Below are positions 3,076 to 5,296 of a DNA stretch of 6,788 nt, piece by piece. The stretch spans positions 1-6,788 of the forward strand of contig JANQTO010000093.1 of assembly GCA_030731685.1 (NCBI GenBank), read 5' to 3'. Made by a program: the position numbers and the translations under genes. Under the pieces are notes generated by a model. That model saw nothing but the letters and a program-made list of their open reading frames with translations. It made no database searches and was not told the DNA's origin. Source of the stretch: Nonlabens sp. Its GTDB lineage: Bacteria; Bacteroidota; Bacteroidia; Flavobacteriales; Flavobacteriaceae. Within the stretch, counting starts at the first letter, position 1. Each line of letters begins with the position of its first letter.

Positions 3076-4053
3076 TTAATCTCTATAGAAAACTTTAAAC
3101 GTTGCGCCCATTCCATAATTATCGTGGCCGCTGCGCACGAGGGCAGAGTTAGGGTTGTAACTCAAATCAAAAACCTGCCATGCGCGGTCGTTTAAGAAAA
3201 TGCGACGCACGTATGTATCGCGCTCTGTTAGTGTTTCTGTAAAAGGCAATAATGGTCTGTAGGTCGTGGATATTTTGGTATAACCCGAGCGTGTTTTTAT
3301 TTCGCGATATTTTTTTGCGTCTATGAGCGTACCCTTTTCATTGGTATAGCCTAAAACCTGTATCGATGCAAAAAGACCTGATTTGGGAATTGTGATATTG
3401 AGGTGCTCGATGTTAACTTCATAGATTTCATCTGTTTCTTCTGTTATAATAAAGGTATGGTTTGGGTAAACCGACTTTCGTACCGGTGAGCCGTCTGCAG
3501 CAACATCATAAAAAAGTACCCTGAATAAGGTTGAAAAAGCACGTAACTTCCCTTTTTTGCTTACTTGGCTTTTCTCGACCACTACCGGAATTTGCAATGT
3601 AGTAATTTGTGTAGGTTGCTCGTCCACGCGGTTAAAGCGCACTGCAATTTCAGACTCTACGGTAGGTAACCAACAGTCAAAATATACGTCGTGGTGAACA
3701 GGTTTGAGTTCGCGATTCTTGAATTTCCCTTCCAACTTTGCATTGAGGATTACTGTTTCTAGCTGGTCTGTTGTTTGGGTTAGATTTATAACCTTAGGTA
3801 CCGCCGTGGCTGGTATCGCAAGTTCTTTATATCCTAGTGATGATATGAATAGTGTGTCCACGTCTGCATACATTTTTTGCGTGAATTTAAAAATACCGTC
3901 ACCGTCAGCAAAGGTGCCGTTGCCATTACCGAAGCTTATCGTTGCAAAGGATACAGGTTCTTTAGAGTCGGCATCTTGAATTTTAATATCCTGCGCAATC
4001 ACAGTTAAAAATCCAAACAGGAATAGTATGTTAAATAGAAACCAGTTTTTCAT
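3076..4053 (-). CDS. Secreted protein with carboxypeptidase-like regulatory domain, function unknown
   Basis: A 325-residue protein from the ATG at 4053; an in-frame TTG one codon upstream is less likely. Residues 1-20 are a signal peptide, probably cut before Gln21 (VIA-QD), so it acts in the periplasm or at the outer membrane. Residues about 22-103 are a CarboxypepD_reg-like beta-sandwich (DADSKEPVSFATISFGNG, then DTLFISSLGY), the domain common in Bacteroidota at the N-terminus of TonB-dependent receptors. No TonB plug or receptor barrel follows in the remaining 220 residues, which look beta-rich and unfamiliar; the C-terminus is NYGMGATFKVFYRD. The start lies inside the last 23 nt of waaA, so the two are likely co-transcribed and translationally coupled. 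This suggests, but does not show, an envelope role. No protease motif is seen. Confidence 0.82.
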   Translation of the reverse strand: MKNWFLFNILFLFGFLTVIAQDIKIQDADSKEPVSFATISFGNGNGTFADGDGIFKFTQKMYADVDTLFISSLGYKELAIPATAVPKVINLTQTTDQLETVILNAKLEGKFKNRELKPVHHDVYFDCWLPTVESEIAVRFNRVDEQPTQITTLQIPVVVEKSQVSKKGKLRAFSTLFRVLFYDVAADGSPVRKSVYPNHTFIITEETDEIYEVNIEHLNITIPKSGLFASIQVLGYTNEKGTLIDAKKYREIKTRSGYTKISTTYRPLLPFTETLTERDTYVRRIFLNDRAWQVFDLSYNPNSALVRSGHDNYGMGATFKVFYRD

Positions 4054-4651
4054 CAATTGATTTTATGTAGTTAATGACCTCGCGGGTTGCGCCGGTATTA
4101 CTATTTATCCAGTGTTCACAAATCATTCCAGTTTTATCCCTTAGAAAATCGTTAGTAAATAACTCATCTAGAATTTCTGTTGCCTCGCTAGCACTTTTAA
4201 TGGAGAAAAGTCCGCCTAAGTCTTCTAGTTTTCCTGCTTCTGGAAATTTTTCATAGTTTTTTCCTATGACCACAGGAACGCCAAATGTTGCTGCTTCCAG
4301 AATATTATGCAAACCTTTTGTACCCATGGCACCGCCTACATAAGCAACACTTGCATAAGAATATGCTTTGGTAAGCAAACCTATAGTATCTACAATAAGA
4401 ACAGGAACGCTATTCATGTCATGGGTCGCGGAATCTTGTAAGGCAGACCATAGCAAGTTGTTCATTCCTAATTGATTTTGTAACGCTTGCACGCTTTCAG
4501 TATCTACTTCATGTGGAGCGATAACGATTTTATACTCTTGGCTTTCTGCAGTTTTTTGCAACCACGGTAGTAACACAGCAATATCTTCTTGCCAGCTGCT
4601 GCCTACAACAAGGCATTTTTTGGTACCGATGAATTCGTCAAATAAGGGCAC
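4031..4651 (-). CDS. waaA: WaaA C-terminal half (CMP-Kdo-binding domain)
   Basis: 206 residues if translation restarts at GTG 4651, 12 nt past the TAA; no better start is seen. Motifs of the nucleotide-sugar domain are complete: VVGSSWQED (15-23, for the usual AGST), IAPHEVD (44-50, for the RHPER region), DTIGLL (88-93), YVGGAMGTKGLHNILEAATF (104-123, for GGS...GGHNPLEPA) and GVPVVIGKNYEKFPE. No Shine-Dalgarno site precedes the GTG, so real expression of this half depends on reinitiation or readthrough. Its last 23 nt overlap the start of the downstream secreted-protein gene. Confidence 0.7.
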   Translation of the reverse strand: MPLFDEFIGTKKCLVVGSSWQEDIAVLLPWLQKTAESQEYKIVIAPHEVDTESVQALQNQLGMNNLLWSALQDSATHDMNSVPVLIVDTIGLLTKAYSYASVAYVGGAMGTKGLHNILEAATFGVPVVIGKNYEKFPEAGKLEDLGGLFSIKSASEATEILDELFTNDFLRDKTGMICEHWINSNTGATREVINYIKSIDEKLVSI

Positions 4652-4663
4652 TTTGTTATCGAG

Positions 4664-5296
4664 TTATATGAGCTGGCATGCGCGGTCAAACCTCGTATCG
4701 CCATTTACGGTTGCGTTTGCAAAGCCTAATTTTTTTAGGTGTGTTAAAGAATCTTCGTTTTGAAGGAAAAAATGATTTATAGCTTTCAAATAAGGTTTCA
4801 TCCAGCTTCCATACCAGCTATTAAACGCCATCTTTTCTCTAAAGACGCCACTTACCAAAATGGTGTGAACATTACGTCTGTGCAGCTCATTTAAGTAGTT
4901 AGGCCAGAATTCATACTTTACCATAATAGCTAGTGATGGGTTCACTATTTCTATAAATTTGTGAGCTTGTGCAGGTGTGTCCAGCGGCAAATAACACACA
5001 ACATGCGCCAGCTTTGTATTCTTTTTGTTCTCATAACCAGATGGTGAGAAAAACGTGAGCACAATTTGGAAGTCCTTATGGTTGAGCTGTTCCAGCACGG
5101 GAACAATTTGCTCAAACTCGCCCAGACTGGCGACGTGCACCCATATTTTGGGCAGCGTGTTCTTCACCTGGTCGCTCAAAATGCCCCATGAACGCTCACG
5201 ACCTTGTGCGCCTAACTTTATTTTGTGGTTAAACGCACCTATTATGGGTAAGCACGCTTTCGCGAAAGCGAACAATACATCATAGCCTTTTTTCAC
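4664..5296 (-). CDS. waaA: WaaA N-terminal half (acceptor-binding domain)
   Basis: 210 residues. The start is GTG 5296, since a stop lies two codons upstream; Tyr5 and the following hydrophobic helix (about 5-22) sit where WaaA proteins have their membrane-associated N-terminal helix, and NHKIKLGAQGRE follows. Motifs seen are HVASLGE with the catalytic-base Glu60, TFFSPSGYE (81-89, for the usual TPTG), YLPLDTP (102-108), KYEFWPN (127-133), GVFRE (150-154) and NGDTRFDR (198-205) at the interdomain linker. A 16-bp palindrome at 5255-5270 encodes AFAKA in the N-terminal helix. A four-codon upstream frame, ATG 5307 to TGA 5293, overlaps the GTG start and might couple initiation. This half holds the catalytic Glu but lacks the CMP-Kdo site, so it should be inactive alone. 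Confidence 0.85.
   Translation of the reverse strand: MKKGYDVLFAFAKACLPIIGAFNHKIKLGAQGRERSWGILSDQVKNTLPKIWVHVASLGEFEQIVPVLEQLNHKDFQIVLTFFSPSGYENKKNTKLAHVVCYLPLDTPAQAHKFIEIVNPSLAIMVKYEFWPNYLNELHRRNVHTILVSGVFREKMAFNSWYGSWMKPYLKAINHFFLQNEDSLTHLKKLGFANATVNGDTRFDRACQLI
5255..5270. repeat. Palindrome copy 2, CGCTTTCGCGAAAGCG, inside waaA
   Basis: A perfect 16-bp palindrome within the coding sequence of waaA, codons 9-14, read as FAFAKA. It shares the core of the copies at 2358-2375 and 6613-6626. It is tolerated in a region where WaaA is only hydrophobic and poorly conserved. Confidence 0.85.

Follow-up and report, generated by a model that had tools for sequence, protein, structure and literature searches.

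Organization of the waaA locus

The window analysed is one entire contig (C93, 6788 bases) of G000, the assembly of a marine Nonlabens bacterium, and its minus strand carries waaA, which encodes the Kdo transferase, an enzyme of outer-membrane synthesis, at 5296..4031. The gene is interrupted: an N-terminal and a C-terminal open reading frame lie in one frame with a TAA between them, four codons separate this TAA from the next in-frame GTG, and the gene's own terminal stop is the TAA at 4031-4033 (Table 1). When the inner stop is read as X, the product has 421 residues and its alignment to intact relatives is gap-free at that position, and the frame contains no lesion besides this single in-frame stop. 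The first-pass annotation had described two same-frame waaA halves parted by a TAA at 4664-4666, with a GTG 12 nt downstream; the two minus-strand frames (5296..4664 and 4651..4031) bear this out, and the GTG is present and opens the second of them.

Table 1. Coordinates of the waaA features and of the other inner stops (window positions unless a locus is named).
Feature	Position	Strand	Remarks
waaA, N-terminal half (Glycos_transf_N)	4664..5296	-	210 codons; GTG start at 5296, TAA end
In-frame TAA, codon 211	4664..4666	-	Glu in 22/22 congeners
Tract of codons 207-266	4499..4678	-	all seven residue differences from P0122 (stop included, start residue excluded)
GTG, codon of Val216	4649..4651	-	12 nt past the stop; Val also in P0122 and P0123
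waaA, C-terminal half	4031..4651	-	206 codons; GTG start
dnaE, in-frame TAG	L073 1726-1728 (contig C140 of G000)		29 of 29 compared relatives read on
AsmA-like gene, in-frame TAA	L127, near 5804		Glu in congener

The N-terminal half belongs to PF04413 (Glycos_transf_N), scoring 145.4 bits (cut-off 23.9) and covering profile positions 12-179 of 179. A Pfam search at E 0.001 gave no match for the C-terminal half, which aligns with the later portions of five NCBIfam models for Kdo transferases, scoring under their full-length cut-offs. These matches, and the alignment of the crystallised C-terminal domain of another WaaA (4bfc) to residues 211-399 in the model of the uninterrupted relative P0122, identify a C-terminal CMP-Kdo-binding Rossmann domain. 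In the P0122 model the stop column is the final residue of the helix 202-211, the first strand of the second domain spans 228-231, and 4bfc aligns from the stop column on. Judged from this model, the stop sits at the WaaA domain boundary, where the first-pass annotation had placed it.

Two further features were seen in the window. The palindrome GCTTTCGCGAAAGC occurs at 2360, 5256 and 6613, one copy lying within the 5ˊ coding region of waaA. It is highly iterated: 55 copies fall in the 309,971 bases sampled from this assembly (loci L051-L130, the three in the window included) and 214 in 1.2 Mb of the congener G010 (loci L131-L190); shuffled 10-base palindromes of its core composition averaged 0.5 and 1.6 copies, with maxima of 2 and 6, respectively. 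A literature search for GCTTTCGCGAAAGC found no work on the motif by title. At 820-925, between the divergent SRAP and S24/HTH regulator genes, inverted repeats resembling GGAATAATTCC recur, with exact copies at 864 and 906; they look like putative operator sites of the S24/HTH regulator.

Comparison with relatives

Nonlabens is a genus of the Flavobacteriaceae, and 22 congener genomes were searched within a set of 58 other genomes. The N domain is present in 57 of the 58, always within a single open frame (394-502 codons) and with a stop-free match, and the sole genome that gave no match has a size of 0.3 Mb. The full comparison comprised 46 loci, 29 from genomes and 17 from a named collection (11 of these 17 repeat congener contigs), all of which align to P0122 through both domains. 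The stop column holds Glu in 34 of the 46 rows, among them all 22 congeners, in every one of which waaA is uninterrupted; two rows outside the genus carry a stop, among the final ten alignment columns. An ancestral Glu codon at the stop, as had been suggested, is consistent with this column.

In a large protein database clustered at 90%, the two nearest proteins are both uninterrupted: P0122 (NCBI MAG Nonlabens sp., 5 member sequences), which is 98% identical to waaA across 421 residues, and P0123 (JGI), which is 95% identical. P0122 thereby supplies what is expected of a pseudogene produced by assembly error, an intact gene in a near-identical relative. Both domains lie on one chain in P0122, P0123 and the 22 congeners, and the TAA parts them in the present assembly. 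An uninterrupted protein of 98% identity and the intact genes of all 22 congeners make an error of sequencing or assembly the most likely cause of the break. Searches for a second waaA in the assembly itself, for which the Pfam N domain, each of the two halves and 501 bp of DNA served as queries, returned this contig only; such an absence is weak, since the assembly is 77% complete. Hence, of the two circumstances that the first-pass annotation had held to tell against its reading, Glu in the relatives is found in all 22 congeners, and a second intact copy of the gene is not found in the 77% recovered.

The domain-boundary position of the stop had led to the suggestion of a two-subunit Kdo transferase. 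In such an enzyme each domain would be translated as a chain of its own, the C-terminal one after re-initiation at the GTG, and the two would associate into an active whole. Such an arrangement would fit the coincidence of stop and boundary, the conservation of both halves and the fact that the C-terminal domain of WaaA has been crystallised alone (4bfc). However, the split is not conserved among close relatives, P0122 and all 22 congeners being single-chain, and the GTG is not a new start but an ordinary valine codon. No Shine-Dalgarno-like purine run was seen ahead of it; flavobacteria frequently lack Shine-Dalgarno sequences. A split form is absent among the 120 N-half matches listed, in which a short form could hide within a 90% cluster, and a literature search for a split Kdo transferase yielded none by title. 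Short N-domain proteins were compared as proteins only, in a list confined to lengths near that of the query and with some entries named partial; among the best 120 of 2400, there are 14 whose ends correspond to positions 200-222. Three short N-domain WaaA proteins encoded on long contigs of other bacteria (P0115, P0014 and P0043) end inside the second domain, not in the linker, and look like other broken waaA copies. The suggested two-subunit enzyme is not supported and we regard it as highly improbable. The same low standing attaches to the view that a single marine Nonlabens lineage has recently split WaaA between its Rossmann domains, with the chains reassembling into an active enzyme, which would be the birth of a heteromeric glycosyltransferase in progress. 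A genuine split would serve as a natural experiment on whether the domain boundary of a GT-B enzyme is a place where it can divide into subunits.

Clustered differences around the stop

The start residue aside, waaA differs from P0122 at seven residues, namely 207, 211 (the stop), 225, 231, 249, 252 and 266, and is identical to it over the 205 residues before and the 155 residues after this tract. The seven differences fit in 60 codons, and a fraction of 0.00065 of 20,000 random draws, weighted by site variability among 15 relatives, was equally tight; for comparison, the 15 differences between P0123 and P0122 are scattered over 115-406. Cys at position 207 is confined to this waaA, the 16 aligned relatives all having Ser there. 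The clustering points either to a patch that was resolved wrongly or to a short tract of recombination, and its fit to recombination counts against the reading as an error.

A genuine private nonsense mutation, carried by the sampled strain or by part of its population as a newly arisen pseudogene allele or else as a minority variant that entered the consensus, ranks second after a consensus error, and we consider it unlikely. It would explain why the frame shows one in-frame stop only and is otherwise undamaged. Under standard conditions E. coli cannot do without WaaA, yet according to PMC8151780 strains that lack waaA were built at 21 C, so that loss of WaaA is not necessarily lethal everywhere. 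Against it, six more changes crowd round the stop in a protein whose remainder is identical to P0122, for which a single fresh point mutation is an insufficient explanation, and dnaE in the same assembly is stopped too, a defect hardly compatible with life.

Inner stops elsewhere in the assembly

The assembly comprises 2,500,408 bases in 543 contigs and is 77.4% complete; its fragmentation suggests that it is a metagenome bin. Eighty of its contigs (309,971 bases) were sampled, together with 1.2 Mb of the congener G010 (794 ORFs of at least 150 codons). In the sampled contigs 47 alignment places (46 genes, 17,349 residues) were obtained, and three of them contain inner stops, defined as lying at least 20 columns inside the alignment: a TAG in dnaE, a TAA in an AsmA-like gene and the TAA in waaA (two further stops at alignment edges were not counted). 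None of the 75 places in 11 other Nonlabens loci has an inner stop, four having stops at the edges; this control is small and narrow (114,583 bases, 24,114 residues, 11 distinct reference genes). The difference of 3/46 versus 0/75 gives a Fisher p of 0.053, or 0.139 when recomputed without waaA, which had been chosen beforehand, and with 11 reference genes in the control the comparison is weak.

More weight attaches to dnaE than to the counts of stops. The gene was found once in the assembly, and its frame terminates at the TAG. The site is read through in all 29 relatives compared, which head a list of 120 and are 78-96% identical, and the gene product equals P0244 over residues 791 to 1449, the stop excepted. 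Cells require DnaE, which makes it improbable that this stop, at least, is genuine. The changes at 642 and 645 are close neighbours in columns that are invariant in the 29 relatives. Besides the stop there are three changes in invariant columns, an ordinary number, since the relatives range from 0 to 16, and this counts against the reading as an error, as does the finding that, among the essential genes inspected by family, rpoB domain 1 and a release-factor gene are both contained in long open frames. A candidate second local error, at the residue following the dnaE stop, was dropped, the same residue being present in the two closest DnaE relatives.

Frameshift-like splits number one in this assembly (L059, a SulP-type transporter) against two in the control locus L034, and were therefore left out of the argument; a p of 0.019 that counted the former was not used, since the control had been credited with none. 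In L034, which belongs to Nonlabens ulvanivorans JCM 19298, the splits near 264 and 8550 run into neighbouring frames and suggest frameshifts in a public assembly. A scan of codon and dicodon scores for stops inside coding sequence returned no candidates in either set. At a threshold of 0.2 the score scan gave 50.8 candidates per Mb in G010 versus 12.9 in the present assembly, with two of the three known inner stops below the threshold. The scans did not tell broken genes from same-frame neighbours and were dropped.

Inner stops in several genes, together with conservation that persists across the waaA stop, would also be expected if the organism decoded such stops as amino acids by read-through or recoding, and no RF1 gene above the model cut-off was found in the incomplete assembly. 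The search with the RF1 model found one gene, at 211.8 bits against a cut-off of 423.25, with an SPF motif, which is typical of RF2. This lone release factor argues against recoding, RF2-type factors decoding TAA, and so does the use of stops: the 40 genes with a 3ˊ end inside a contig, waaA included, terminate with TAA (25), TAG (10) and TGA (5), and the inner stops comprise both TAA and TAG. A screen of 55 of the 80 loci detected no suppressor tRNA, a weak result given that only two tRNA genes were found there. Of all the explanations weighed, recoding seems the least credible, and we regard it as extremely improbable.

Proposed origin of the stop and comparison with known systems

Of the three origins offered for the stop by the first-pass annotation, a fresh nonsense change and a base-calling error still stand, the two-subunit enzyme is unsupported, and the evidence leans to error. 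We consider the TAA in waaA to be most likely a local consensus error that arose in sequencing or assembly, and the gene itself is most likely ordinary. The clustered tract would then be a wrongly resolved stretch, perhaps from low coverage or mixed strains, rather than the sequence of a living cell; the real WaaA of this organism would be an ordinary single chain, and the location of the stop at the domain boundary would be a coincidence. The case cautions that, where a fragmentary assembly shows a conspicuous stop, the other essential genes of that assembly, here dnaE, should be consulted before the stop is given a biological meaning.

According to the abstract of Cooley and Wright 2024 (PMC11017572), many internal-stop pseudogenes among 126,564 genomes are ascribed to assembly error, and inflated counts flag poor assemblies. 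The waaA break resembles the spurious pseudogenes described there: the gene is intact save for an internal stop, the assembly is fragmentary and holds more stopped genes, and close relatives are intact. It differs in that the abstract covers public genome assemblies generally, and the error in waaA is a probable one.

The known WaaA (KdtA) is the Kdo transferase acting on lipid IVA and has a GT-B fold, represented by the structures 2xci and 2xcu from Aquifex aeolicus and, for the C-terminal domain, by 4bfc from Acinetobacter baumannii. In contrast to this enzyme, the present assembly has a frame that a stop divides at the boundary of the two domains.
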